DNA of 64,000 nt, from contig NZ_QRCB01000015.1 of assembly GCF_009833095.1 (NCBI RefSeq), forward strand, positions 1 through 64,000, written 5' to 3'. Below the pieces are notes generated by a model. That model was not told where the DNA came from. It worked only from the letters and a program-made list of their open reading frames with translations, and did not search any database. Below are positions 3,744 to 47,127 of this stretch, one piece after another. A program made the translations under genes and the position numbers. Each line of letters opens with the position of its first letter. The first letter of the stretch is position 1. Origin of the DNA: Nitrosomonas sp. JL21. GTDB taxonomy: Bacteria; Pseudomonadota; Gammaproteobacteria; Burkholderiales; Nitrosomonadaceae.

Positions 3744-4751
3744 GTGAAAAAAAATATTATCGTAATCGGAGCATCTGCGGGCGGACTGACGGTGCTTTCT
3801 GAAATTCTCGGCGCATTACCCGATCATTTCTCCGCCTCACTCTTCGTCGTCATCCATACCGGCCCTGATTCTCCGGGCGCCCTCGATTTCATTCTAGGGA
3901 GGAGCAGCGCGCTACCGGTGAAATACGTCTATCAGCGCGAGAAAATTCAAACCGGGAGCATTTATTTGCCGATTGCCGATCATCATCTCGTCATTGAGGA
4001 TACTGCCACGGTATGTGTTACCCGCAGCCCGAAGGAAAACCGCTTTCGTCCGGCGATCGATCCTCTTTTCCGTTCGGCCGCGCAATCATTCGGAACTCAA
4101 GTCATTGGCATCGTTCTGACCGGCGGCTTGGATGACGGCACAGCAGGACTTCAGGCCATCAAACAGCGCGGTGGCACAGCTATCGTACAAGACCCGCAGG
4201 ACGCCGAGAATCCGTCCATGCCGCGCAACGCGCTCAAGCACGTGCGCGTGGATCATTGCGTGCCCTCCGCGGGCATAGCTCCGTTATTGATCGAACTGAT
4301 ACAGCAAGAAGCCGCACCTTATTCCAGCGTACCGGTCAATGAGAAACTCAACACCGAAGTAGCCATTGCGCTTGAGCATAATCCGGTCAATGCCGGTGTT
4401 TTCAAGCTCGGCAAACCCTCCATCTTTACCTGTCCTGAATGCCATGGCAGCTTATTGGAAATCGATTCTGATCAATTCACCCGCTACCGTTGCCATACCG
4501 GACATGCCTATACCGTTCGATCCCTGCTATCGGAGAATGACGAGAGAATCGAATATGCACTGTGGGATGTCATCCGCATTTTGGACGAGCATATGGTCTT
4601 ATTGCGGCAACTGGCAGAATATTCTCATGAAGACGGCGACAATGAAACTGCGGAACACTACCTGGATCGATTCAAGGTTACCAAAGAACGCGTTAATCTG
4701 CTTCGTAATATCACATTTATGCTGCATAATCCTGAAAAAGAACCCGGGTAA
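3744..4751 (+). CDS. CheB-type methylesterase-domain protein with C-terminal Cys/His zinc-like domain
   Basis: The 335-residue protein starts at a GTG and has a CheB catalytic domain over residues 3-190. The expected triad is visible: Ser11 in IGASAGG, His38 in VVIHTG and an Asp in LTGGLDDGTAG near residue 130. It lacks the N-terminal receiver domain of classical CheB. The C-terminus carries CPECHGSLLE and RYRCHTGHAYT, a CxxC...CHxGH arrangement that looks like a metal site, then an alpha-helical tail. CheB removes methyl groups from chemoreceptors, but no receptor, CheA or CheW lies in this window. It leads a cluster with the CheB-CheR-PAS fusion at 4855, so a non-chemotactic signalling role is more likely. 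Confidence 0.85.
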   Translation: MKKNIIVIGASAGGLTVLSEILGALPDHFSASLFVVIHTGPDSPGALDFILGRSSALPVKYVYQREKIQTGSIYLPIADHHLVIEDTATVCVTRSPKENRFRPAIDPLFRSAAQSFGTQVIGIVLTGGLDDGTAGLQAIKQRGGTAIVQDPQDAENPSMPRNALKHVRVDHCVPSAGIAPLLIELIQQEAAPYSSVPVNEKLNTEVAIALEHNPVNAGVFKLGKPSIFTCPECHGSLLEIDSDQFTRYRCHTGHAYTVRSLLSENDERIEYALWDVIRILDEHMVLLRQLAEYSHEDGDNETAEHYLDRFKVTKERVNLLRNITFMLHNPEKEPG

Positions 4752-4854
4752 TCTCTGTGGCCGGAACTGGAACAGTTCCCTGCAATACTCTCCCCGAATT
4801 TTCCGGCCTGATCTTCATCATTTTTCAATCATTCTCTATCACTGAATTTCACAT

Positions 4855-7758
4855 ATGGCCTCAAGAAAAAAAAATATTACTCCTATCATCGTCGGCATCG
4901 GATCGTCCGCAGGAGGACTAGAGGCACTGCAACAACTCTTCAAGCACATTGCTCCCGATAGCCACAAAGCGTTCATCGTGATGCAGCACCTGGATCCCAA
5001 ACACACCAGCCTGCTGACCGAAATTTTGCAACGCTGCACTTCGCTTCCCGTCACGGAAATATCCGATGGCCTGCAATTGATGCCCAATCATATCTATGTC
5101 AATCCACCGAATCGGGACATCGTGGTTTTTCAAGGCAAACTGCAGGTGAGTTCCCCGCTTGACTCGAAAGGCCCGCGCTCGCTGATTGATGGTTTTTTTT
5201 CGTCGCTTGCCGAGGATCAGCTCTCCCAAGCCATTGGCATCGTCTTGTCTGGCACCGGCTCAGACGGAACGCAAGGATTGGGCGCTATTTTTCATGCCGG
5301 CGGGCTGACATTGGTGCAAGAACCAAGTACCGCAAAGTATGACGGCATGCCGTCGAGCGCCATCGATGCCGGTTTTGCTACGCATGTCCTGCCGGTGGAG
5401 AAAATGCCGGAAATTTTTGACGCGCATAAACGAAACCTCCTTCCCCCCAAGGAAAAACCTCGAAATGGCAAAAAAAACAATGCCGTCGGCCGCATTCTGA
5501 TGGACTTGCGCTCATTTACCGGCCATGATTTTTCACTCTACAAAAAAAGCACGATCGAGCGCCGTATCGAACGGCGCATGACATCGTTGTCGATCGATGA
5601 TATCGATGTGTATGCTCAGCTCATCAAGAAGAACAGCAATGAAATCAGTGCCCTTTTTAAAGAACTGCTGATCAATGTCACCAGTTTCTTTCGCGATTCG
5701 GAAGCTTTCGAGGTATTGGAAAAAGACATTCTTCCCGGGCTCTGCAAAAATAAAACCGAACATTCCGTTTTCCGCGTCTGGGTAGCGGGTTGTGCTACTG
5801 GCGAAGAAGCCTATTCCATCGCCATCATCCTCAAGGAATGGCTCGAGAAATCGCAGCAGGAATTTAAAATCCAGATCTATGCCACCGATCTGGATGAAGA
5901 CGCCGTCGCGACCGCCCGCTTGGGCATTTATTCGCTGAACATCATCCAGGATGTCAGTCCGGAACGGTTGCGCCGTTTCTTCACGAAAGAAGACAATTGC
6001 TACCGGATCAAGAAAGAAATTCGCGAAATGGTCGTTTTCGCGACTCAGAATCTGCTCAAGGATCCGCCTTTTACCCGACTGGATTTGCTCAGTTGCCGCA
6101 ATTTGCTGATTTACCTCGGAGCAGAATTGCAGAATCAGCTCATCCCGGTCTTCCACTACGCCCTCGTCCCGGAAGGCGTGCTGTTCTTGTCGCCGTCGGA
6201 AGGCATCGGCAATCATCATGAGCTGTTCTCGCAAATCAACCGCAAATGGAAATTCTATCGCGCCTGCAAAACAGCATCTTCGCGCACGACCGTGGCCAAT
6301 GTCATCTCATGGACAGCCGGCATGGGAGATAAGACACCCGACGAGGTCATCATCAAACCCAAAGAAATCAATTTTGCGGAATTCACCCGCCGCGTATTGA
6401 TCCAATGCTTCGCCCCGGCTTCCGTATTGACGGATTTGAAGGGCAATATCCATTTTATCCATGGCGATACCGGCAAATTCCTGCGTCCCGCGCCCGGGCA
6501 AGCCAGCTTGAACATCATCGAAATGGCCCGCGAAGGTCTGGAACTGGAATTGCGCACCGCGATTCGGGCCGCAACCAACGATAAAAACTCCACCCTCAAC
6601 AAGGAAGTGGAAGTTAAAACCAATGGCGGATTCACGACCATTCATCTGAGCGTGAGATTCTTGGCCAGCAATGAAAGCCACCAGCATTTTTTGCTGATCA
6701 GCTTTTTAGAGATCAGCCCCATCGCCAAAAAAGCCGGAATCAAGCGCATTCCCAAGGCGATCGAACTGGGGCGCATCGAAGAACTGGAACGCGATCTGGT
6801 GTACTTGAAGGAAAATTATCAAGTAACATTGGAAGAGCAGCAAGCATCGAATGAAGAACTCAAATCGACCAATGAGGAATTGCAATCGACCAATGAGGAA
6901 TTACAATCGACCAACGAAGAACTTGAAACTTCCAAGGAAGAATTACAGTCTGTCAATGAAGAGTTGGTGACCGTCAATTCGGAATTGCAGGGCAAAATCG
7001 AACAACTGGTCGGCATGCAGAACGATATGAAGAATTTGCTCGACAATACCCATATCGGCACGATATTCCTCGATGAAAAATTGATCATTCGGCGCTTCAC
7101 GCGCGAAGCCACGACGTTATACCGGTTGATCTCTTCGGACGTAGGCCGGTTATTGAGCGACATCAAGTCGAATCTGACCAACGATGAATTGCTGACGCAC
7201 GCTGAGGAAGTGCTCGAAACCTTGATTCCTTACGAACAGGAAGTGCAGACACAATGCGGCAATTGGTATCTGGCCCGGATTCAACCTTATCGCACGCTTG
7301 ACAATGCAATCGAAGGCGTCGTGTTGACATTCACCGATATCAACAAGCTCAACAAGGCAGAAGATGCCAGCCGGCTAGCCAGCGACCTGGCCGGCGAAGT
7401 GGTCGATGTCATCGCGCATCCCTTATTGATCATTGACAAGGACTTGAGAGTGATTTCTGCGAATCGCGCCTTTCATCAATTCTTCAAGCTGAGCGTTGAA
7501 GAAACCATCGGCCGGAAAATTTATGAACTGAGCAACAATCAATGGGATATCGAGCCTTTGAAGAACTTGCTCGAAGTGATTCTGCCACGTGATCAGGTAT
7601 ATGAAGGCTATATCGAGCATGATTTTCCGATCATCGGTCATCAAAAACTGTTTTTGAACGCCCAGCGCACGGTCAGCAAATTCAACGAATTTTCGTTGAT
7701 TCTGCTGATGGCCAGGGAGAACAACGGTTCCTCGACGAACCCATTGGGCCATGAGTAA
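4855..7758 (+). CDS. CheB-CheR-PAS fusion protein
   Basis: This 967-residue protein starts with a CheB domain (about 9-195; Ser18 in GIGSSAGG, His in VMQHLDP, Asp in LSGTGSDGTQG). A CheR methyltransferase domain follows (about 215-480; LLINVTSFFRD, WVAGCATGEEAYS, YATDLDEDA, LLSCRNLLIYL). Then comes a coiled coil of 7-residue STNEELQ repeats near 665-710, and PAS domains at about 720-950. No histidine kinase core follows. Such fusions are known in many Proteobacteria and usually feed into kinases or receivers. The stop overlaps the next PAS gene by eight bases. With no receptor in sight, the substrate of the paired methylesterase and methyltransferase domains is unknown. Confidence 0.9.
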   Translation: MASRKKNITPIIVGIGSSAGGLEALQQLFKHIAPDSHKAFIVMQHLDPKHTSLLTEILQRCTSLPVTEISDGLQLMPNHIYVNPPNRDIVVFQGKLQVSSPLDSKGPRSLIDGFFSSLAEDQLSQAIGIVLSGTGSDGTQGLGAIFHAGGLTLVQEPSTAKYDGMPSSAIDAGFATHVLPVEKMPEIFDAHKRNLLPPKEKPRNGKKNNAVGRILMDLRSFTGHDFSLYKKSTIERRIERRMTSLSIDDIDVYAQLIKKNSNEISALFKELLINVTSFFRDSEAFEVLEKDILPGLCKNKTEHSVFRVWVAGCATGEEAYSIAIILKEWLEKSQQEFKIQIYATDLDEDAVATARLGIYSLNIIQDVSPERLRRFFTKEDNCYRIKKEIREMVVFATQNLLKDPPFTRLDLLSCRNLLIYLGAELQNQLIPVFHYALVPEGVLFLSPSEGIGNHHELFSQINRKWKFYRACKTASSRTTVANVISWTAGMGDKTPDEVIIKPKEINFAEFTRRVLIQCFAPASVLTDLKGNIHFIHGDTGKFLRPAPGQASLNIIEMAREGLELELRTAIRAATNDKNSTLNKEVEVKTNGGFTTIHLSVRFLASNESHQHFLLISFLEISPIAKKAGIKRIPKAIELGRIEELERDLVYLKENYQVTLEEQQASNEELKSTNEELQSTNEELQSTNEELETSKEELQSVNEELVTVNSELQGKIEQLVGMQNDMKNLLDNTHIGTIFLDEKLIIRRFTREATTLYRLISSDVGRLLSDIKSNLTNDELLTHAEEVLETLIPYEQEVQTQCGNWYLARIQPYRTLDNAIEGVVLTFTDINKLNKAEDASRLASDLAGEVVDVIAHPLLIIDKDLRVISANRAFHQFFKLSVEETIGRKIYELSNNQWDIEPLKNLLEVILPRDQVYEGYIEHDFPIIGHQKLFLNAQRTVSKFNEFSLILLMARENNGSSTNPLGHE
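6863..6925 (+). repeat. Three tandem 21-bp units encoding a coiled-coil heptad
   Basis: Units at 6863-6883, 6884-6904 and 6905-6925 share the core AATCGACCAATGAGGAATT, with the third slightly diverged. Each encodes one heptad with STNEEL. It is part of the coiled coil linking the CheR and PAS domains. Repeat number could vary between strains by slippage and would lengthen the linker in whole heptads. Confidence 0.7.
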
Positions 7759-8314
7759 ACAAAAAAACATGGAAAGGCGCGGTTCGTTACGGACCCATGC
7801 CGAAGCAATGGTCCGAAATTTGTCTGCCGCAAACAAAACCATGCTCAATGAAGTCCTGACGCATGAATTGCTGGTGCATAAGGTCGAATTGGAAATGCAG
7901 AATGAAGAACTCAGAAGAGCGCAACTCATCATCGAAGAAGCCAGAGACCGGTATATCGATCTGTACGAATTTGCCCCGGTCACCTATATTTCCCTCAATT
8001 TGGGTGGAACGATCCATGCAATCAATTTGACCGGCGCTCAGCAATTAGGAATGGATCGCGCCAAACTGATCAATAAGCGGTTTTCGGGGTTTATTGACAA
8101 GACCGCAAAAGATTGTTGGTATCGGCTCTTTTTTTCGCTGGTGAAATCAGGCTCTGAATTAGAATATCCCAAAAAATTGAGGCTACAGATGATCCGCCAG
8201 GATGATTCGACCTTTGATGCATTCCTCAGTTGCGCGGTGAAAACTGCAGCCGATTCTCCGCCGTTATTGCGTATTGTTTTAATGGATATCTCTGCCAATG
8301 AATCCAATGAGTGA
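7751..8314 (+). CDS. PAS-domain protein
   Basis: This 187-residue protein has an N-terminal helical segment (about 1-60) and a single PAS fold (about 65-180), recognisable from YIDLYEFAPVTYISLNLGG and a closing LLRIVLMDISANE. There is no kinase or output domain. It overlaps the end of the CheB-CheR-PAS gene by eight bases, indicating tight co-expression and probably a partner role. It resembles the N-terminal PAS part of longer kinases, so it may be a former fusion partner that now acts in trans. The ligand cannot be deduced. Confidence 0.75.
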   Translation: MSKQKNMERRGSLRTHAEAMVRNLSAANKTMLNEVLTHELLVHKVELEMQNEELRRAQLIIEEARDRYIDLYEFAPVTYISLNLGGTIHAINLTGAQQLGMDRAKLINKRFSGFIDKTAKDCWYRLFFSLVKSGSELEYPKKLRLQMIRQDDSTFDAFLSCAVKTAADSPPLLRIVLMDISANESNE

Positions 8315-8668: not shown

Positions 8669-9424
8669 ATGCAAAATATCATTTTCTCGAAAAGAAACTC
8701 CCTGCTGAATAAATTCACGATTGAGGAATACGCTGCTCTGTCCGGGCAGTTGGAGCTCATCTCGTTAGGATTGGGAGAAGTGCTGTATGAGGTCGCTGAA
8801 GAAGCGCCGTTCATTCACTTTCCCATCGATAGCATGGTTTCCCTGCTCCATCCCATGAAGAATGGCAAATCAGCGGAAATCGCCGTGATTGGCTGCGATG
8901 GCGCAATCGGCATTGCCCGCAATCATCAGGCCACGTTAAACTGCGCCGTTGTCGCGAGAGAAGGCAATGCCTATCGGATCAGAAAAAACTACTTCATGGA
9001 AGAAATTGAGCGGAACGAACGATTGTTCGACCTGTTCATCAAGCATACGCAAGTCCTGCTGACCCAAATTGCGCAAATCACGGTTTGCCATAGCTTCCAT
9101 ACCACCGACCAACAACTCTGTTGTTGGCTATTATCGAATGTACGCCGGATCAGCGATAAGGAAATGCCGATTTCCCGTTCATTGATAGCATACTTATTGG
9201 GCGTCCCCCTGGAAGCCGTCACGCAAGGCATCGATAACCTGGGAAAAAGCCATTTGATCAGCTATCAATCGGGTGTGTTGACCCTGCTTAATCAACAAGC
9301 CATCGAGAAAAGAAGCTGCGAATGCCATTTTGTGATCAAACATGAAATCGAACGTTTACTGAAAACTCCACCATCCCACAAGGAAGCCACGTCCTTTGAC
9401 ATACATCACCATCACCATTCATGA
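8669..9424 (+). CDS. Crp/Fnr-family transcriptional regulator
   Basis: The 251-residue protein has a cyclic-nucleotide-binding-like beta-roll (about 20-125; FIHFPIDSMVSLLHPM and IAVIGCDGAIGIA) and a C-terminal winged helix (about 150-220; SRSLIAYLLGVPLEAVTQ as recognition region). The ligand-site arginine and phosphate cassette typical of cAMP-binding Crp are not evident, and no four-Cys Fnr cluster is seen. It is a paralogue of the regulator at 37629-38369; both have the same opening block and a C-terminal CEC motif. Oddly, the native C-terminus ends in five consecutive histidines before Ser-stop. It sits directly after the CheB/CheR/PAS cluster. The effector is unknown. Confidence 0.85.
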   Translation: MQNIIFSKRNSLLNKFTIEEYAALSGQLELISLGLGEVLYEVAEEAPFIHFPIDSMVSLLHPMKNGKSAEIAVIGCDGAIGIARNHQATLNCAVVAREGNAYRIRKNYFMEEIERNERLFDLFIKHTQVLLTQIAQITVCHSFHTTDQQLCCWLLSNVRRISDKEMPISRSLIAYLLGVPLEAVTQGIDNLGKSHLISYQSGVLTLLNQQAIEKRSCECHFVIKHEIERLLKTPPSHKEATSFDIHHHHHS

Positions 9425-10275: not shown

Positions 10276-11136
10276 ATGGCCGAACATGCTTTTTGGTCGG
10301 GTCACATTCGCTTGTCATTGGTAACGTTTCCGATCCGGCTTTTTCCCGCCACGTCGTCGCGGGACAAGATCGTACTGCACAAATATGATCGTGACAGTGG
10401 GCAGCGCATCCGTTACCGCAATGTGAATGAAGACGGCGAGATGGTGGAACCGGAGGATATCGTGCGCGGCTATGAGTACGAAAAAGGAAGTTTCGTGCCG
10501 ATCGAAGATAAGGAAATCGACAATCTCAAACTGGAAAGCAAGCACACGATCGAACTCGTTCAGTTCACGGATCATGCTTCGATTGATTCGATTTATTTCG
10601 ATGTTCCGTATTATGTCGTTCCCGATGGCGATATCGCGCAAGAAGCGTACCTGACGTTGCGCGATGCGCTGCGCATGAGCAAGAAAGTGGCATTGGGCCA
10701 AGTCGTGCTACGCGACAAGGAACGCATCGTTGCGATCAAACCGTGCGGCAAGGGTTTGCTGATGGAAACCCTGCGCTATGCGTATGAAGTGCGCCAGGCC
10801 GAGGATTATTTTGAAGGTATCGAGGTTGACACCCAGATTGACGAAGAGCAATTGGCGCTTGCAGAAGAATTGATCGATCGTAAAACGGCCAAATTTGATC
10901 CGCGAAAATTCAAGGATGTGTACCAGGAAGGATTGAAGGAAATCGTCAACGCTAAACTGGGCAAGCGCCCAGTCCGCTCAAAAAAAGAGCCTGCCACCCC
11001 CGAGAAGGTCACTAATATCATGGATGCGCTGCGCCGCAGCCTCAAACAAACCGGCGGCAGCGAAACGAATTCCGGATCTGAAAAAAAGAAACCGATCCGC
11101 AAAACCCGTTCCCCCAAACAAAGAACTGTCGCCTAA
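10276..11136 (+). CDS. ku: Ku protein, non-homologous end joining
   Basis: The 286-residue protein starts MAEHAFWSGHIRLSLVTFP, the typical bacterial Ku opening, after a GGAGAGAG ribosome site. It carries the Ku core beta-barrel (about 1-200; YDVVPYYV-like block as IYFDVPYYVVPDG, and YAYEVRQ) and a basic C-terminal tail rich in Lys and Arg that contacts ligase or DNA. Ku forms a homodimeric ring on DNA ends and recruits LigD. The ligD gene starts four bases after its stop, so the pair is a two-gene repair operon. Length is normal. Confidence 0.95.
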   Translation: MAEHAFWSGHIRLSLVTFPIRLFPATSSRDKIVLHKYDRDSGQRIRYRNVNEDGEMVEPEDIVRGYEYEKGSFVPIEDKEIDNLKLESKHTIELVQFTDHASIDSIYFDVPYYVVPDGDIAQEAYLTLRDALRMSKKVALGQVVLRDKERIVAIKPCGKGLLMETLRYAYEVRQAEDYFEGIEVDTQIDEEQLALAEELIDRKTAKFDPRKFKDVYQEGLKEIVNAKLGKRPVRSKKEPATPEKVTNIMDALRRSLKQTGGSETNSGSEKKKPIRKTRSPKQRTVA

Positions 11137-11139
11137 GCC

Positions 11140-13635
11140 ATGTCTTCGCCACTGTCCAGTTATCATCACAAGCGTGATTTCAGCGTCACCAGTGAACCGA
11201 AAGGTAAAACCGGCAAACCTAAAACCCGTCGTTTGGCATTCGTCATTCAGAAACATGGCGCTCGGCGCTTGCATTATGATTTCAGGCTCGAATTGGATGG
11301 CGTGATGAAAAGCTGGGCAGTGACGCGCGGGCCCAGTTATGATCCTGCCGACAAGCGCCTGGCAGTTCACGTTGAAGACCATCCGCTGGAATACAATCGA
11401 TTCGAAGGCGTGATCCCGGACAAACAATATGGCGCAGGCCCCGTGATGATCTGGGATAACGGCGAATGGATACCGGAAGGAGATCCTCATCAGGATTTGA
11501 AGAAGGGTCATCTGACCTTTCAACTCCATGGTCAACGGATGCACGGGCGCTGGCATCTGGTGCGCATGAATTCAACCGATAAACGCGATAACTGGCTTCT
11601 CATCAAGGGAGAGGACGAATTTATCCTGAAGGGAACAAGCAACCAGCATTTCCTCGAGCAAGAAAATACCAGCATTGTTTCGAATCTCACGCTCGATGAA
11701 ATCCGCGCCGGGGCAAAAGGTAACGCTTCGGACGATGCTCACCGGAAAACAAAAAAAATGCAGACCACCGGAATCGATACCTCCGCGGCGACCTCATTAT
11801 TGAAAAAATACCCGAGGCCCGAACTTGCGACATTGGTGGAATTTCCGCCTGCCGGCTCTGATTGGCTGCATGAAATCAAGTATGACGGTTACCGGATCAT
11901 GGCGTTTCTGGAAAATGGCAAAGTCAGGCTTCGTACTCGCGGCGAAAAGGATTGGACGCATAAATTTCCCGGCATTGCCAAGCAACTGGCCCAAATCAAA
12001 GTCAGCAATGCCGTTCTCGATGGCGAACTCGGCGTTTTGAACGATCGGGGCGCGACCAGTTTCGCTGCACTGCAGGATGCGTTGTCGCGCCATGACTCCA
12101 GCCAGGTACAAGGATGGTTTTTTGATCTGCTGCATCTGAACGACGACGATCGGACCCAAACCCCGTTGATCGAGCGCAAGGCTGCGCTCAAAAAAATTCT
12201 GAACAATAAAGCCCTGACTATGGTGCATTACAGCGACCACCTGGAGAGCAGTCCGCATTTGCTCAAGAAAGCGTGCAGCATCGGCGCTGAAGGTCTGGTT
12301 TCAAAACGCAAGGATAGCGCGTACCAATTCCGACGCACCAAAGAATGGCTCAAAAGCAAATGCGGCCAGGCGCAAGAATTCGTCATAGGCGGTTTCATGC
12401 CGGCCAAGGACGGTTCCGAGTCGATTGCTTCTCTGTTGCTGGGTTATTATCAAGACGGAAAGTTCCGCTATGCGGGTAAAGTGGGCACCGGTTTTGGCGC
12501 TGAACTCGCGCGGCAGATTTACCGGCAATTGCAGCCGTTGCGATTGTCCCGGCCACCGTTCAGCGGCAAAGTTGAAAAATCAGTCCGCCCGCATGTCTGG
12601 GTCAAGCCGAAGCTGCTGTGCGAGGTAGCATTCTGGGAATGGACTGCTGATCAACGCATACGCCACGCCTCATTCAAAGGATTGCGGGAAGATAAAGCCC
12701 CCAAGTCGGTACGCCTGGAAATTCCGGATCAACTTCCAAATCGCATCATTCATTCCTCTACAGAAAATGATTTCACGGTTGAGGGAATTACCATCACGCA
12801 TCCGGAGCGTGAAGTGTTCCCCGGCAGCGGGGTCAGCAAAGGTGATATCGCTCAGTATTACGCGAAAGTTCTCCCCTTTATGCTGCCGTTTCTGAAAAAC
12901 CGATTGATCAGTCTGGTGCGCTGCACCGATACAATCGAAGGGGAATGTTTCTTTCAACGCAACCCCATGCGCGGAATGGGTCCGGATCTACGCGGCAAAA
13001 CCATCACCCATCAAGGCAAAAAACATAACTATTTTTATATCGATAACGCAGCAGGAGTGCTTGAGCTGGTGCAAATGGGCACCATTGAATTTCATGTGTG
13101 GCAAAGCCGCGTCCAGATGATCGATAAGCCCGAACAGATCATTTTTGATCTCGATCCCGGCGAACACGTGCCGTTCGATGCGATCAAGCTTGCCGCTGAG
13201 GATGTTCGCCGCCGTTTGCAGCAGCTTGGATTGGAATCATTTCCGCGATTATCGGGCGGCAAGGGCATCCATGTGGCCGTTCCGTTAAAACCAAACCACG
13301 GCTGGGATGGAATCAAGCGGTTCTGCCGGCGCTTCGCCCAGCACATGGAACGCGATGCGCCGGATGCGTATGTCGCGACGATGAATAAAAGCCAGCGACG
13401 TGGAAAGATTTTCATCGATTATTTGCGCAATGATTTTTCATCCACAGCTATCGCGCCTTATTCCCTGCGCGCCCGCAAAGGTGCGCCGGTGGCGGTGCCT
13501 TTGTCGTGGAAACAGCTTGACGGCATCGATTCCTCGCAAGCGTTCAATATCTTCACCATCGATGCCCTGCTGACTCCCGCCCATGAACAAATGAATCAAC
13601 GCTATCTGGATATGCACCAGTCCATCAAGATTTGA
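11140..13635 (+). CDS. ligD: Multifunctional ATP-dependent DNA ligase LigD
   Basis: The 831-residue protein has all three LigD modules. The 3'-phosphoesterase domain comes first (about 30-190; ARRLHYDFRLELDG, KSWAVTRGPS). The ATP-dependent ligase domain follows (about 205-520), with catalytic Lys247 in HEIKYDGYR, then DGELGVL, GAEGLVSKR and LKSKCGQ. The primase-like polymerase domain is last (about 540-830; VFPGSGVSKGDIAQYY, IIFDLDPGEHV, GGKGIHVAVPL). This order is that of Pseudomonas LigD. It repairs double-strand breaks with Ku, filling and trimming ends before sealing. It is directly downstream of ku, and no truncation is seen. Confidence 0.95.
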   Translation: MSSPLSSYHHKRDFSVTSEPKGKTGKPKTRRLAFVIQKHGARRLHYDFRLELDGVMKSWAVTRGPSYDPADKRLAVHVEDHPLEYNRFEGVIPDKQYGAGPVMIWDNGEWIPEGDPHQDLKKGHLTFQLHGQRMHGRWHLVRMNSTDKRDNWLLIKGEDEFILKGTSNQHFLEQENTSIVSNLTLDEIRAGAKGNASDDAHRKTKKMQTTGIDTSAATSLLKKYPRPELATLVEFPPAGSDWLHEIKYDGYRIMAFLENGKVRLRTRGEKDWTHKFPGIAKQLAQIKVSNAVLDGELGVLNDRGATSFAALQDALSRHDSSQVQGWFFDLLHLNDDDRTQTPLIERKAALKKILNNKALTMVHYSDHLESSPHLLKKACSIGAEGLVSKRKDSAYQFRRTKEWLKSKCGQAQEFVIGGFMPAKDGSESIASLLLGYYQDGKFRYAGKVGTGFGAELARQIYRQLQPLRLSRPPFSGKVEKSVRPHVWVKPKLLCEVAFWEWTADQRIRHASFKGLREDKAPKSVRLEIPDQLPNRIIHSSTENDFTVEGITITHPEREVFPGSGVSKGDIAQYYAKVLPFMLPFLKNRLISLVRCTDTIEGECFFQRNPMRGMGPDLRGKTITHQGKKHNYFYIDNAAGVLELVQMGTIEFHVWQSRVQMIDKPEQIIFDLDPGEHVPFDAIKLAAEDVRRRLQQLGLESFPRLSGGKGIHVAVPLKPNHGWDGIKRFCRRFAQHMERDAPDAYVATMNKSQRRGKIFIDYLRNDFSSTAIAPYSLRARKGAPVAVPLSWKQLDGIDSSQAFNIFTIDALLTPAHEQMNQRYLDMHQSIKI

Positions 13636-40845: not shown

Positions 40846-43800
40846 ATGTACCGGTTTCAGCACGAAATTTCACGGCCTCTCAATAGTTCCATATTTATCA
40901 TTCTGGGCTTTCTTTTTATTCTCGACTTGTATGCGCCCTTAGGCATATCGGTCTGGATATTTTATTTCATTCCAATCGTTATTTCTTTCTTTTCCTTACA
41001 GCCCAATTTACCTTTCCTGGTCACCTTTCTGATTTCAATTTTTCTTTTTCTGGGCTTTAAGCTGAGCCCTCTTGGAATAGAAGAGAGCGTAGCCATTATT
41101 AATCGCAGTCTAGCGCTCATTTCATTCCTCGGAATTGCCATTGTAGGAAATATATTCATCCGCAATCAACTACAATCAAAAAAACATAATTGGTTGATTA
41201 CGGGTCAGAATAAATTAAACAGTCAAATGGCCGGTGATTTGGTGTTAACAGAACTGAGCAATAAGATTTTGCGGTTTTTGGTGGACTATTTAGAAGCGAA
41301 AATCGGAATTATTTATATCAATGATCGGGAAATTTTTCGCCATATGAGCACGTATGGTGTATCAGTAAATGCGGTCTTACTTGACACGATTCATGCAGAG
41401 GACGGCCTGATCGGCCAGGCTTCTAAAGATAATCGCCCGATTTTCTTGTCTGAAATACCCAACGATTATCTCAAGATCGGATCGAGTCTGGGAAAAAGCT
41501 CGCCTCGGCATTTGGTGATCTACCCCTTCGTTTTGAACAATAAAACGAATTGTATTGTGGAGCTGGGTTTTTTCAATTTTCATGCGCAATCGACGACAGA
41601 TTTACTCGATTTCGTCAGTAGATCCATTGCCTCAGCGGTGCAAGCAGCGCAAACTCATCTTCAAGTTCATGAATTATTGATCGAAACCCAGCGCCAAAGC
41701 GAAGAGCTCCATTCTTATAGCGAAGAGCTTGATAAGCAGAGTGAAACGCTCAAGCTGTCCAACGCACAATTGGAACAACACCAAAAAACCGTTGAAACCG
41801 CTAATCGCCAATTAAAAGAACAATCACGAATCTTGATTAGCCAAAATGAAAGCCTGATCAATGCCAACTTGGCCCTTGAATTGCAGAAACAGAAGCTGAC
41901 TCAGATCAGCCGCTATAAATCCGAATTTCTCGCCAATATGTCGCACGAACTTCGCACCCCCTTGAATTCATCCATTATTCTGGCGCATTTACTGGCTGAA
42001 AATCGCGAAGAAAATCTCACCGACCTTCAATTGAAATACGCACAGACCATTGAAAACTCGAGCAACGAGCTCTTAGCGCTGATCAACGATATATTGGACT
42101 TGTCCAAAATTGAAGCAGGTCATATGACTGTGCTGCCGCAGAATGTAAATATCCTTGAATTTGTGGATAGCATGGAGGCTGTTTTTCAACCGATGTGCGC
42201 TCAAAAAGGCCTCCATTTCAGGAAAGAAATTGCTGATGGATTACCGCAAAACTTCATAACTGATCCTATCAGACTCGGCCAGATCATCAAGAACTTGCTT
42301 TCCAATGCCATAAAGTTCACTGAAACGGGTGAAGTCGCTTTATCTGTCACCACCGCGCCGGATGTCCATATCGCATTCATTGTCAGCGATACCGGTATCG
42401 GAATATCGGTAGAACAGCAATCCCTGATTTTTGAACCCTTCATCCAAGTCGACGGCGCGCTTAACCGTAAAAATGGCGGAACGGGTCTCGGATTATCGAT
42501 CTGTATTGAGCTCATCCGGCTATTGAAAGGAAAGATTAATTTACAAAGCAGACTGGAACAAGGAAGTATCTTCACGGTGTTATTGCCGGAAGTGTTGGAT
42601 ATGCCCCAACTTCAACCAGACCTCGAACTTACACCGGCAATCTCATCCAGAACCGGGAATTCTGGGCTTTTGCCGGCTGCGGCAGAAATTTCTTTCGACC
42701 GTGCAGTATTGAACATATCAGAATTTCCCGAACATCCTCAACTTCCCCAGAATGAACCTATTATTCTCATTGTCGAGGATAATCCGGGATTTGCTCGCAG
42801 TACTCTCGAGCTGGCGAACTCTTTCGGATTTCGTGGGATCATTGCCGCTACGTCCGAAGAGGCCGTCAATCACCTGCATCCCCATACCCCGAGCCTGATC
42901 ATCATGAATGGCAAATTCAAAGATGATGTCAAGGACTCTTTATTCGCCGCTGATGATCTGGAAATACCCTTGCAACTTCTGACCGCCAATGATTACTCAT
43001 CCAATGACCTATCCGATGACACCCGAGAGTATTTTCTCAAGCCATTCATCCATCAAAAATTAATGGCCGATTTTCATCGTCTTCAAATGAAAACCCGGGA
43101 AAAATTGGCTCATGTATTGATCATCGAGGATGATCCCATTGAAAGAACGATGATGAGCGTTCTGCTCAATTCCAAAAAAATTGAAACCATTGAAGTTGGA
43201 TCGGTACCTGAATGTTTGGAACAACTGGCCAAGGGCACGTTCGATTGTATGATTCTCGACCTTGGGTTACCCACGACGTCAGGATTTTCTCTACTTGAAA
43301 CATTGAGTATGGAAGACCGCTATTCATTTCCGCCCGTCATTATCTATACCGGACTCGGGCTGACAGCGGATCAGGAATTATTCCTGAATAAATTTTCTCA
43401 ATCCATCATTATCAAAGGCACTAAATCCCCCGAACGGTTATTGGATGAAATAATGCTATTCCTTGAAAGCACCGGATCATTCGTTGCTGATCGGAACACA
43501 ACCGGACAAGTAAATGACTTAGCTGTTGATGTGTCTTTGGAAGGCAGGCATCTACTGATTGTGGAAGATGATATCCGCAATATTTTTGCGCTCACCAGTA
43601 TTCTGGAACCTCGGGGCGCTACCATTCAAGTGGCGCGCAATGGCATGGACGGGCTGGAGGCTTTGCAGACTTCTCTGGACGGCGGCGAACAATCCATCGA
43701 CTTGGTGTTAATGGATATCATGATGCCCAAGATGGACGGACTGACCGCCATCCGCAAAATTCGGCAACAATCCGCCTTCAAGGACATTCCAATCATTGCG

Positions 43801-43923
43801 CTTACCGCAAAGGCACGGCAAATCGATCATGACGAAACGTTGGCGGCAGGTGCGAATGACTATATATCCAAGCCTCTGGATACGAATAAATTCATCCCTC
43901 TATTGGCTAAATGGCTTAAATAA
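40846..43923 (+). CDS. Membrane hybrid histidine kinase with three receivers
   Basis: The 1025-residue protein has about four N-terminal membrane helices (about 12-110), a GAF domain (about 135-275), a long coiled coil (about 285-360), HisKA (His367 in ANMSHELRTPL), HATPase (about 410-585) and three receivers. The first, at about 640-745, has Asn688 where the phospho-acceptor Asp should be (LIIMNGK). The second has Asp805 (FDCMILDLGLP) and the third Asp957 (LVLMDIMMPKMDG). The third should accept the phosphate. The CheR gene follows five bases later. Confidence 0.9.
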   Translation: MYRFQHEISRPLNSSIFIILGFLFILDLYAPLGISVWIFYFIPIVISFFSLQPNLPFLVTFLISIFLFLGFKLSPLGIEESVAIINRSLALISFLGIAIVGNIFIRNQLQSKKHNWLITGQNKLNSQMAGDLVLTELSNKILRFLVDYLEAKIGIIYINDREIFRHMSTYGVSVNAVLLDTIHAEDGLIGQASKDNRPIFLSEIPNDYLKIGSSLGKSSPRHLVIYPFVLNNKTNCIVELGFFNFHAQSTTDLLDFVSRSIASAVQAAQTHLQVHELLIETQRQSEELHSYSEELDKQSETLKLSNAQLEQHQKTVETANRQLKEQSRILISQNESLINANLALELQKQKLTQISRYKSEFLANMSHELRTPLNSSIILAHLLAENREENLTDLQLKYAQTIENSSNELLALINDILDLSKIEAGHMTVLPQNVNILEFVDSMEAVFQPMCAQKGLHFRKEIADGLPQNFITDPIRLGQIIKNLLSNAIKFTETGEVALSVTTAPDVHIAFIVSDTGIGISVEQQSLIFEPFIQVDGALNRKNGGTGLGLSICIELIRLLKGKINLQSRLEQGSIFTVLLPEVLDMPQLQPDLELTPAISSRTGNSGLLPAAAEISFDRAVLNISEFPEHPQLPQNEPIILIVEDNPGFARSTLELANSFGFRGIIAATSEEAVNHLHPHTPSLIIMNGKFKDDVKDSLFAADDLEIPLQLLTANDYSSNDLSDDTREYFLKPFIHQKLMADFHRLQMKTREKLAHVLIIEDDPIERTMMSVLLNSKKIETIEVGSVPECLEQLAKGTFDCMILDLGLPTTSGFSLLETLSMEDRYSFPPVIIYTGLGLTADQELFLNKFSQSIIIKGTKSPERLLDEIMLFLESTGSFVADRNTTGQVNDLAVDVSLEGRHLLIVEDDIRNIFALTSILEPRGATIQVARNGMDGLEALQTSLDGGEQSIDLVLMDIMMPKMDGLTAIRKIRQQSAFKDIPIIALTAKARQIDHDETLAAGANDYISKPLDTNKFIPLLAKWLK

Positions 43924-43928
43924 ACGCA

Positions 43929-44792
43929 ATGAGCACACGGGAAGATATTGAAGTCGATTTATTTTTGGAAGGCGTCTATCGCCACTATCATTATGATTTC
44001 AGGAATTATTCTCGAACCTTCATTAAACGCCGGCTTAACCTGATTAAAACGCTGCTTCAATGTGAGAGTTTTTCGATGTTGCAGCATCAAATACTGCATG
44101 ATCCCCACTTGATGACCAAAATTCTGAATTACCTCACCATTCAGGTTGGCGACATGTTCCGCGACCCCGGCTATTTTCTTTCCCTGCGTCACATCATTTC
44201 CTCCTATTTATCGACCTACTCGTCAATCAAGGTATGGATCGCTGGCTGTGGCACAGGGGAAGAACTCTATTCGTTAGCGATTCTTTTCCGTGAAGAAGGT
44301 TTGGAAAGCCGGGCTCAATTTTTTGCGACCGATATCAATTTTGAAGCGCTGAAAAGGGCGGAAGCGGGCATTTATGCAGTGGATCGCCTCGAATCATTTG
44401 AAAACAACTATCGACACACTGATCCAAAGCACTCATTCTCATCTTATTACACGATCAAAAATAACTACGCAGTTTTTGATAGCGCATTGAAGGAAAACAC
44501 CGTCTTTTATAACCATAGCCTGGTATCTGATTCGGTTTTTGCGGAAATGCATCTGATATCATGCCGCAATGTACTGATATACTTCGATAATTCTCTGCAG
44601 GAGCGTGCGATCGGCCTATTCAGCGATGCACTGATACGTAAAGGGTTTCTGGGATTAGGCGCCAAGGAAAGTTTGTATTTGTCTCCGCATGCCGGAAATT
44701 TCACTGAGTTTCAAAGGAAAGACCGCATTTATCAAAAAATGGCGCTGCAAGAACTACCTTTGCCAAGGGTTAGAGGTCACATAAAATTATAA
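43929..44792 (+). CDS. CheR-type methyltransferase (stand-alone)
   Basis: The 287-residue protein has CheR motifs in order: LTIQVGDMFRDPGYF (a variant of the canonical NVTxFFRD), WIAGCGTGEELYSLAI for S-adenosylmethionine, FATDINFEA, and ISCRNVLIYFDNSLQERA. CheR methylates glutamates of chemoreceptors. Here it is immediately downstream of a hybrid kinase, with no receptor in sight, so its target may be a kinase or an unconventional protein. The first motif differs more from consensus than the CheR part of the fusion at 4855. Confidence 0.9.
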   Translation: MSTREDIEVDLFLEGVYRHYHYDFRNYSRTFIKRRLNLIKTLLQCESFSMLQHQILHDPHLMTKILNYLTIQVGDMFRDPGYFLSLRHIISSYLSTYSSIKVWIAGCGTGEELYSLAILFREEGLESRAQFFATDINFEALKRAEAGIYAVDRLESFENNYRHTDPKHSFSSYYTIKNNYAVFDSALKENTVFYNHSLVSDSVFAEMHLISCRNVLIYFDNSLQERAIGLFSDALIRKGFLGLGAKESLYLSPHAGNFTEFQRKDRIYQKMALQELPLPRVRGHIKL

Positions 44793-45113
44793 GGGATGAA
44801 ACAAGCTCGGCAGCTTGAGCTAATTTGCTGCTTCCTCGATTTGAAGAATTCAGCAGGAACTAATTCATAGACTAGGCGCCCATAACAAATGGGACTGGAA
44901 TGACAGATTGAGGCAACGCGGGTTGGATCAGGTCGTCTCTGGAAATGTACATTCTTCACATTCCACGGATGAGTGAGAACTTCAACCCATCATGAGAAGC
45001 ACCACGTTCCTTTCAATTATGCTACGATTTTTTCTTACAGCAGCAATACCCTTAATACCAGAACGTTATTTTTCGATCAGCAATAGAATTGATTCCTTAA
45101 CAATTGGTTAACA
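44793..45113. other. Intergenic region upstream of receiver-PAS-kinase
   Basis: This 321-base gap has no supported gene. It probably carries a promoter for the plus-strand pair at 45114-47127. I found no strong hairpin or operator. Confidence 0.3.
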
Positions 45114-46760
45114 ATGATGCGTAGGTCTAAACGAATACCGCATGCTCAATCAACGGACGCAGAGGATAAAGCTAAGATCTTGATTGTGGATGATCGGCAA
45201 GAAAATATTTTAGTTTTGATGGGTCTGCTGAAACATGTCAATGCCGATTTCCTGCCCGCCGGGTGTGGCGAAGAAGCGTTGGAGTTGCTGCTGAAATTTG
45301 ACTGCGCACTGGCAATCATCGATGTACAAATGCCGGGACTGAATGGCATTGAACTTGCAAAAATAATGAGGAGTGTAGAACGCACCAAGAAAATTCCCAT
45401 TATTTTTGTGACCGCCGGCCCACGGAATGGCGAAACTTCCATCGATGGCTACCAGGCCGGCGCGGTTGACTTTCTCTACAAGCCCATCGTTCCTGAAATC
45501 TTGACCAGCAAGGTGCTGGTTTTCCTGCAGATCTATGAACAGCAACAAGAGTTGATCCGGCAAAGAGATGCCATTCATGAGTTAGCGCAAGAAAAATCCC
45601 GGCTCCTGGATGACCAGAGAGAGATTCAGAAGAAACTGGCCGCCAGTCAGCGCCAGCTCACGGCAATCATTAATACGACCAGCGCTCTGGTCTATCTGAT
45701 CGATCAAGAAAATCGCTTCCTGCATGTGAATTCGCAATTTGAAAAAATATTCGGTCAAACGCTCGAGAATATCATCGGCAAATCAATTTTTGATGTGTTC
45801 TCTACAGAATCGGCGGCTCTGCATGAAGCGAACAACCTCAAGGTGATGACTGAGCTCCATACGATAGAATTCGAAGAGCCGCTGTATCAGTCGAATGATG
45901 TGTATTACTATTCTTCCGTAAAATCTCCGTTACTCGACGATGACGGCAAGCCCATCGGAATCGTGAGTATTTCCACCGATATCACCGGTCGTAAACAGAT
46001 CGAGCAAGCGCTGCGCCAAGCCGATCGTCGTAAAGATGAGTTCATCGCAATGCTGGGACATGAATTGCGCAATCCCTTGACACCGATCAATACAATCGCC
46101 ACGCTGCTGAACACTAAGTCGCTGGCACCTAACGATTTTAGGTGGGCGTGTGACGCGCTACAGAGAAATGTTCAAATCATTAATCGATTAGTCAGTGATT
46201 TGATGGATGTTTCCAGGATTACGCGGGGACTCATCACGCTCCATTTGGAGCATATCGAGATCATTAAATTGATCGAGGATGCTCTGCAGGCCATGAGTGA
46301 ATTGATCAGCGCCAAACAACAGACGCTACAATTCACTTATCAGGAGCAATCCCTCATGATCTATGGCGATCAAGTCAGGCTCATGCAGATCTTCACCAAT
46401 CTTATCCATAATGCCACCAAATATACGCCGATGGATGGTCATATCGACATCAACATGCGTGTGGACCAGAATAATGCCATTTTCCGCATTCAGGATAATG
46501 GAAGAGGGATTTCCGCCGATTTCTTGCCCAACATTTTTGAATTATTCGCGCAAGACAGCGATAGTATTCTGGATCATTCCCAGGGAGGACTCGGAATAGG
46601 ATTGACGCTGGTCAAGAAACTCGTCGAACTCCACGACGGACACATTACTGCGCATAGCGAGGGATTGAATAAAGGCTCAACATTCACGGTTAACTTACCT
46701 TTACCCACTGAAGTGAATAGTCATTCAGAAGATGAAAAGCTTAACTATTCTTTTAATTGA
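45114..46760 (+). CDS. Receiver-PAS-histidine kinase
   Basis: The 548-residue protein begins with a receiver (about 20-140; Asp70 in LAIIDVQMPGLNG), then a coiled segment, a PAS domain (about 180-295; VNSQFEKIFGQTLENIIGK), HisKA with His316 in MLGHELRNPLTPI, and a HATPase (about 420-540; GGLGIGLTLVKKL). It has no membrane helix. An N-terminal receiver suggests it is controlled by another kinase in the block, forming a relay. Its end overlaps the next receiver gene by 29 bases. Confidence 0.9.
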   Translation: MMRRSKRIPHAQSTDAEDKAKILIVDDRQENILVLMGLLKHVNADFLPAGCGEEALELLLKFDCALAIIDVQMPGLNGIELAKIMRSVERTKKIPIIFVTAGPRNGETSIDGYQAGAVDFLYKPIVPEILTSKVLVFLQIYEQQQELIRQRDAIHELAQEKSRLLDDQREIQKKLAASQRQLTAIINTTSALVYLIDQENRFLHVNSQFEKIFGQTLENIIGKSIFDVFSTESAALHEANNLKVMTELHTIEFEEPLYQSNDVYYYSSVKSPLLDDDGKPIGIVSISTDITGRKQIEQALRQADRRKDEFIAMLGHELRNPLTPINTIATLLNTKSLAPNDFRWACDALQRNVQIINRLVSDLMDVSRITRGLITLHLEHIEIIKLIEDALQAMSELISAKQQTLQFTYQEQSLMIYGDQVRLMQIFTNLIHNATKYTPMDGHIDINMRVDQNNAIFRIQDNGRGISADFLPNIFELFAQDSDSILDHSQGGLGIGLTLVKKLVELHDGHITAHSEGLNKGSTFTVNLPLPTEVNSHSEDEKLNYSFN

Positions 46761-47127
46761 TGATCAACCCGATATCACTGAAAGTATTGGCATATTCCTG
46801 AGATTGGAAGGCCATACCGTACACATTGCCCGAAATGGTCAAGAAGGCATTGCCGAAGCGCAACGTTGCATGCCGCACATCATCATTCTCGATATCGGGC
46901 TTCCCGATCTCGATGGCCTCCAAGTTGCCCAGAAAATAAGAGCGCTTCCATCCCCATCCGTTAAGCAATGGATCATCGCGTTAAGCGGTTATGCGCCGTC
47001 CTGGCTGAAAACCGCCACGTCTCCTTTTGACAATTATCTGATCAAGCCTCCCGATATCCTTCAATTACAACACATCATTTCAAATTATCAAGCTGGATTG
47101 GATGCTCCTGACGCTCATCACTCCTGA
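46732..47127 (+). CDS. Single-domain response regulator
   Basis: The 131-residue protein is one receiver domain with Asp54 in IIILDIGLPDLDG, the acidic LLIDDQPD pocket, and a Lys in YLIKPPD. It has no output domain, like CheY, and would relay phosphate or bind a partner. Its start lies inside the end of the upstream kinase gene, so expression is coupled. It is probably the partner of that kinase. Confidence 0.88.
   Translation: MKSLTILLIDDQPDITESIGIFLRLEGHTVHIARNGQEGIAEAQRCMPHIIILDIGLPDLDGLQVAQKIRALPSPSVKQWIIALSGYAPSWLKTATSPFDNYLIKPPDILQLQHIISNYQAGLDAPDAHHS

Follow-up and report, generated by a model that had tools for sequence, protein, structure and literature searches.

Comparison across genomes shows that the CheB-CheR-PAS unit encoded at 3744-8314 of the window (the whole 64,000-nucleotide stretch of Nitrosomonas sp. 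JL21 DNA that was analysed) persists, as far as gene content tells, without chemoreceptors or CheW and pairs with a partner of exchangeable output, which can be a histidine kinase, a GGDEF/EAL protein or no output at all. The central protein joins CheB, CheR and PAS domains to a long helix with regularly spaced glutamate pairs. We tentatively read the cluster as a receptor-independent, methylation-tuned sensor, in which CheR and CheB would act on the fusion's own helix and so tune its PAS domains and the partner. CheR and CheB normally assist chemotaxis receptors; the reversible methylation of glutamates is known from textbooks as the memory of bacterial chemotaxis and is taught as a property of chemoreceptors. 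The cluster is filed here as a variant of the known adaptation enzymes.

The three open reading frames of the cluster are borne out as real genes by the ORF calls and Pfam. A preliminary description made from the sequence had placed a free CheB with a tail, a CheB-CheR-PAS fusion and a trans PAS protein in one cluster, and the ORFs and domains agree with it. It had overlooked two parts of the fusion that appear in the AlphaFold2 model, a third PAS-like fold (residues 507-620) and an 81-residue helix (residues 651-731). The features are as follows.

3744-4751, + strand: free CheB methylesterase without a receiver, with a C-terminal CPxC...C(H/Q)xGH zinc-ribbon-like tail (PF01339, E 1.6e-49, residues 6-181)
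4407-4748, + strand: tail of the free CheB, with four residues resembling metal ligands and, after them, a stretch that probably forms a helix (sequence reading)
4855-7758, + strand: CheB-CheR-PAS-helix-PAS_10-PAS fusion, 967 aa (Pfam, AlphaFold2 model, 80 orthologs)
4891-5412, + strand: CheB domain of the fusion, residues 13-186 (CheB, E 1.5e-53)
5494-6252, + strand: CheR N-terminal and SAM-binding domains of the fusion, residues 214-466, with a short beta-subdomain loop (CheR_N, E 1.7e-12; CheR, E 1.9e-54)
6373-6714, + strand: PAS-like fold of the fusion without Pfam annotation, residues 507-620 (AlphaFold2 secondary structure)
6805-7047, + strand: single 81-residue helix of the fusion, residues 651-731, between the enzymes and PAS_10 (AlphaFold2 model)
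6844-6933, + strand: four tandem heptads with a relaxed receptor-methylation-like pattern, sites at residues 664, 671, 678 and 685, candidate CheR/CheB substrate (pattern scan)
7027-7626, + strand: PAS_10 (residues 725-829; E 5.7e-32) and C-terminal PAS (residues 849-924) of the fusion (Pfam)
7751-8314, + strand: trans PAS protein, 187 aa, with a conserved N-terminal helix (residues 34-60) and a PAS domain, without an output domain (Pfam, comparison of partners)

The free CheB gene ends 103 bp before the fusion gene on the same strand, and the fusion and PAS genes overlap by 8 bp. The PAS match of the small protein is weak (PAS_9, 22.7 bits against a cut-off of 27). Neither ORF calls nor Pfam place an MCP, CheA or CheW within 3744-8314, and a promoter and terminator scan gave counts close to the shuffled expectation.

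The enzymes of the fusion appear intact. Eighty orthologs were collected with peptide patterns; one of these patterns (residues 720-727) falls within the helix end, outside the motif stretch. The closest named orthologs are from Nitrosomonas, at 69-70% identity. An alignment of 59 of the 80 orthologs with the window's fusion, to which they are 53-69% identical, has Ser18, His45 and Asp137 invariant in CheB and Arg280, Glu317, Glu318, Asp345 and Cys414-Arg415-Asn416 invariant in CheR across its 60 sequences. We take their catalytic roles to be those of the E. coli and Salmonella enzymes. Pfam finds no PF00072 receiver in the free CheB or the fusion CheB, and no PF00015 MCPsignal hairpin in the fusion. 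The AlphaFold2 single-chain model of the fusion has a mean pLDDT of 74 and a pTM of 0.39, and the helix is modelled with low confidence (pLDDT about 50-77 by block). A Foldseek search with this model matched CheR, CheB and PAS-containing chains, and a structure search by sequence gave CheR and CheB structures only. Residues 507-620 are called PAS by the order of their secondary-structure elements only, the Foldseek matches being listed without residue ranges.

Residues 661-700, together with the rest of the coil, form the most conserved stretch of the fusion. Over the 60 sequences this segment has a mean identity of 0.95 and an entropy of 0.18, compared with entropies of 0.74 for CheB, 0.70 for CheR and 0.97 for PAS_10. 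Across 74 orthologs the 35-residue helix core is 96% identical as protein and only 50% identical at third codon positions, and the conservation therefore reflects selection on the protein. With heptad positions assigned from the N/L register, the conserved residues lie mostly at positions expected to be exposed. Pairs of glutamates at b/c repeat at intervals of 7 residues, small residues occupy f/g, and 56-60 of the 60 sequences retain the b/c glutamates between residues 660 and 703.

This arrangement resembles receptor methylation sites. A relaxed 9-residue pattern, [ASTG][ASTG]x[EQ][EQ]xx[ASTG][ASTG], which was framed after the window had been seen, occurs four times in the window's helix at a spacing of 7. 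At the same spacing, the ortholog coils have at least two sites in 80 of 80 cases and five in 64, while shuffled coils have a mean of 0.036 sites and the 80 orthologs together have one site outside their coils. The pattern also lies in the methylation helix, before the hairpin, of all seven canonical MCPs of the JL21 genome (seven of its ten MCPs; a text filter recognised no hairpin in the other three). The other ORFs of the fetched loci, 986 in all, include 34 with one site each and a single ORF with tandem sites; the latter (L164) is itself a fusion, which leaves none in 985. Diverged fusions, including those of MCP-free genomes, have changed the coil sequence and kept the site spacing. Tandem sites were also found in 19 of 23 distinct non-orthologous CheB-CheR ORFs, one of the remaining four being cut off before the coil.

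The likeness has a limit. The strict 10-residue methylation consensus given in an excerpt of PMC6829392, [ASTG][ASTG]xx[EQ][EQ]xx[ASTG][ASTG], is found in all seven canonical MCPs of the genome and nowhere in the 80 fusion orthologs, because their heptad position e is Gln, Lys or Glu. A description of the helix as a perfect match to the consensus was therefore dropped. The same excerpt also notes candidate adaptation sites with departures from the consensus pair (PMC6829392). A second protein of the genome, the CheB-CheR-PAS_10-GAF paralogue on contig C30 (L017, 4695-8105), has intact-looking enzymes and a degenerate helix with neither relaxed nor strict sites; it may use another substrate, or it may show that the motif is dispensable. 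Since the strict consensus is missed and this paralogue is site-free, the likeness to receptor methylation resides in register and spacing rather than in a strict match. In the open-licence literature searched, no account of CheB-CheR-PAS proteins with a methyl-accepting coil was found, which is weak evidence of absence.

Self-modification of the helix by the CheR and CheB of the fusion is our preferred, tentative reading of how the module works. The fusion would sense through its PAS domains and carries both enzymes in the same chain. CheR would methylate, and CheB demethylate, the paired glutamates of the helix in the fusion itself, probably with one subunit of a dimer acting on the other. 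Methylation of the helix may then shift the state of the PAS domains that follow and of the partner. The module would thus fill the role of the chemoreceptor methylation helix. The JL21 partner has no output domain, and a kinase or cyclase from another locus might receive the signal.

The partner gene offers a different candidate substrate. The CheR of the fusion could methylate, and both CheBs demethylate, the N-terminal helix of the partner or kinases and cyclases carrying the same module, with the fusion helix serving only for dimerization or docking. Among the 72 ortholog loci that could be judged (the other 8 of the 80 end too soon), a coil-PAS partner lies on the same strand within 400 bp in 61, farther away in three (L091, L107 and L130) and is absent in eight; it often overlaps the fusion end by 4 bases. 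The adjacency in 61 of 72 loci speaks for such trans action, and so does the conservation of the partner: in an alignment of the window's protein with 63 of the 64 downstream proteins (the broken L086 was left out), the helix at residues 34-60, with the motif HELxVHxxELExQNEEL, has an entropy of 0.94 against 1.85 for the PAS domain. Outputs are also swapped behind the constant coil-PAS part. Of the 64 partners, 39 are longer than 330 residues, the window's being a short form, and scanning them revealed HATPase_c in 21, HisKA in 18, GGDEF in 16, EAL in 13 and a receiver in 13. However, the relaxed pattern is missing from the first 110 residues of all 64 partners, on which ground the partner helix was rejected as an MCP-like substrate, and several relatives carry their output in cis and need no partner. 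Trans action is unlikely in our estimate. Among seven relatives scanned for outputs fused in cis, an HWE kinase was found in L160, L161, L168 and L186 and GGDEF-EAL in L058. L160, L161 and L168 are from MCP-free genomes and have the HWE histidine kinase in the same chain as the fusion.

The fusion could instead supply a PAS-regulated extra CheR/CheB pair that alters the methylation of the host's own receptors. The JL21 genome (3.17 Mb, 87 contigs, 99.99% complete) encodes four CheB domains, four CheR domains and ten MCPs, with a canonical CheA-CheR-CheD-CheB(REC) operon on contig C21, whose CheB has a PF00072 receiver. The preliminary description had presented the cluster as one without chemoreceptors and called for a listing of the methyl-accepting proteins; its statement is right for the cluster and wrong for the genome, given the ten MCPs and the separate che operon. 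This host equipment favors accessory chemotaxis enzymes. Against them, the cluster and the che operon lie on different contigs, and the cluster has a different partner gene. The longer beta-subdomain loop of CheR binds the receptor C-terminal pentapeptide. Of the seven canonical MCPs, five have a C-terminal pentapeptide of the W-x-x-F type; the fused CheR has a 4-residue gap in the loop compared with the canonical CheR on contig C21.

Relatives within the genus could not serve as a test of MCP independence, because the ones in which the fusion match is long have MCPs as well, and an even sample of 348 Pseudomonadota genomes was used instead (E<=1e-100 for the fusion, E<=1e-3 for MCPs). The fusion is present in 73 of them. 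An MCP match was found in 62 of these, as expected of accessory enzymes, although for one of them (G181) it lies only below the Pfam cut-off, and none was found in the other 11; the genomes G131 and G193 each consist of a single contig. CheW was sought in the 11 MCP-free genomes and G181, and was absent from 11 of the 12 and present in G085; the CheW domain is thus missing from 10 of the 11 MCP-free genomes. In MCP-free genomes that carry the fusion, its enzymes therefore need a substrate other than an MCP, if they are active. These genomes speak against the accessory role, which we regard as improbable, and by gene content they support a fusion module that does not depend on chemoreceptors. 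The suggestion of the preliminary description that methylation may act on an unconventional substrate is supported by the same counts and by the shorter loop of the fused CheR.

The helix motif follows the fusion closely. A degenerate DNA pattern encoding N-E-E-[L/M/I/F]-x-[S/T and a few others]-x-N-E-E (the NEExxSxNEE coil) was found in 56 of the 73 fusion-bearing genomes and in none of the 275 others, and a reversed control pattern gave 0 among the matches listed. Of 61 distinct pattern places checked, which leave out six of the 56 genomes (G073, G077, G085, G089, G108 and G136), 56 are inside the fusion match and four more are in ORFs with CheR. The remaining place (G066) is on the same strand as a CheR piece and downstream of it, in an apparently interrupted gene. 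The exact DNA pattern is missing from 17 of the 73 genomes, some of which have diverged coils with relaxed sites. Because the checked places sit in fusion matches or CheR ORFs, the helix appears to travel with CheR; this counts as support rather than proof, as a single inherited family would give the same result. It is very improbable that the CheB and CheR domains serve as regulatory scaffolds, wholly or nearly inactive, in a PAS sensor with a generic signalling helix: the unmet strict consensus would fit, and PAS domains and such coils are common linkers in sensor proteins, but the catalytic residues are invariant at 53-69% identity and a generic linker would not be confined to fusion-bearing genomes. 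In several relatives (G016:C7, G020:C1:3760186-3762750, G035:C1 and G056:C371) stop codons interrupt the fusion match, and the gene seems to be decaying.

The free CheB is probably a second, separately regulated demethylase that would act on the same substrate. Among 18 sequences, the window's included, Cys230, Cys233, Cys250 and His254 of the tail are invariant, as are the triad-type residues Ser11, His38 and Asp131. The 18 tailed sequences span Pseudomonadota, Deinococcota and Bacteroidota, and no Pfam family matches the tail above its cut-off. At E<=1e-40 the free CheB is present in 9 of the 348 genomes, its own included, one of which (G204) matches in the CheB domain only. In the seven other tailed genomes it adjoins the fusion in four, including G333, which has neither MCP nor CheW. 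Plasmid records with one place covering at least 80% of the free CheB number 154. Twelve plasmid regions were examined, hand-picked rather than random (seven of 30 listed free-CheB matches and five of 30 listed fusion matches), and the fusion lies alongside the free CheB in four of the seven. Deinococcus sp. QL22 has two free CheBs, together with a fusion and a PAS-kinase that is a relative of the partner. The tail had been taken for an unusual addition; its recurrence in plasmid records, and often beside the fusion, does not bear this out, and we read the tailed CheB as a recurrent accessory. A conserved three-gene unit of close orthologs that includes it was rejected: in the 80 ortholog loci tblastn detected the CheB of the fusion itself and no free CheB beside it, L132 and L149 having a further, tail-less CheB-domain match there. 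The pairing recurs in other lineages and not in the close orthologs. At L191 (5925-7145), a tailed free CheB of 407 residues has a C-terminal extension that reads like a receiver domain.

Chemoreceptor adaptation (MCP, CheR and CheB-REC) shares with the fusion the same two enzymes with invariant catalytic residues, and a long helix in which glutamate pairs recur at a 7-residue interval. It differs in that the fusion has no MCP hairpin, CheA or CheW, its CheB has no receiver, its enzymes are fused to PAS sensors, it misses the strict methylation consensus and it is present in MCP-free genomes. The alternative-function chemosensory pathway (ACF), in which CheA, CheW and MCP cluster with multidomain response regulators, likewise differs from the cluster, which has no CheA, CheW or MCP. 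Plasmid-encoded proteins of the same architecture, annotated as 'chemotaxis protein CheB' or 'CheR family methyltransferase' (Rhizobium, Azospirillum, Deinococcus, Nostoc and others), several with a tailed free CheB alongside, are known by record annotation only; we found no described function for them.

The closest experimental precedent that we found is cfcABCDE of Pseudomonas putida. According to the excerpt of PMC4951495 consulted, CfcA is a sensor kinase that controls c-di-GMP, CfcB and CfcC are CheB/CheR proteins, and a role in chemotaxis is described as ruled out. The system thus resembles the cluster in having CheB/CheR beside a sensor kinase outside chemotaxis, with a c-di-GMP link, but that excerpt describes CfcB and CfcC as separate CheB/CheR genes and not as a fusion with PAS domains and a helix (PMC4951495). 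In the window, 40846-47127 has a CheR gene (43929-44792) that immediately follows the gene of a GAF-kinase-REC-REC protein and precedes genes for REC-PAS-kinase and REC proteins; as far as the excerpt describes cfc, its arrangement is nearer to this CheR with its hybrid kinases than to the cluster at 3744-8314. The CheR-TPR fusions of alternative-function pathways such as FrzF also combine CheR with an added domain and are clustered with kinase and GGDEF/EAL outputs. They have TPR instead of PAS and accompany receptors, FrzF methylating the receptor FrzCD, in the part of PMC3447774 consulted.

Tentatively, such clusters may belong to a widespread class of adaptation modules that work without chemoreceptors. 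Each would combine CheR, CheB and a methyl-accepting helix of its own in one chain and, through glutamate methylation, tune histidine kinases and c-di-GMP enzymes. About one in five of the Pseudomonadota genomes sampled (73/348) encodes a single protein with the two enzymes and a helix that is a candidate substrate. If this is true, ordinary kinases and c-di-GMP enzymes can also have a methylation memory, and receptor-style memory would be brought to two-component and cyclic-dinucleotide signalling.

Several neighbors of the cluster were noted. A Crp-like regulator lies behind it (8669-9424), below Pfam cut-offs; relatives at 24-48% identity occur in the flanking DNA fetched for 25 of the 80 ortholog loci, a count uncontrolled for the abundance of the family. 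At 10276-13635 a Ku gene precedes one for a large protein that resembles a ligase and reads as LigD-like; together they form a bacterial end-joining pair. At 2045-2592, two small overlapping ORFs on the minus strand read like a RelE/ParE-type toxin and its antitoxin.
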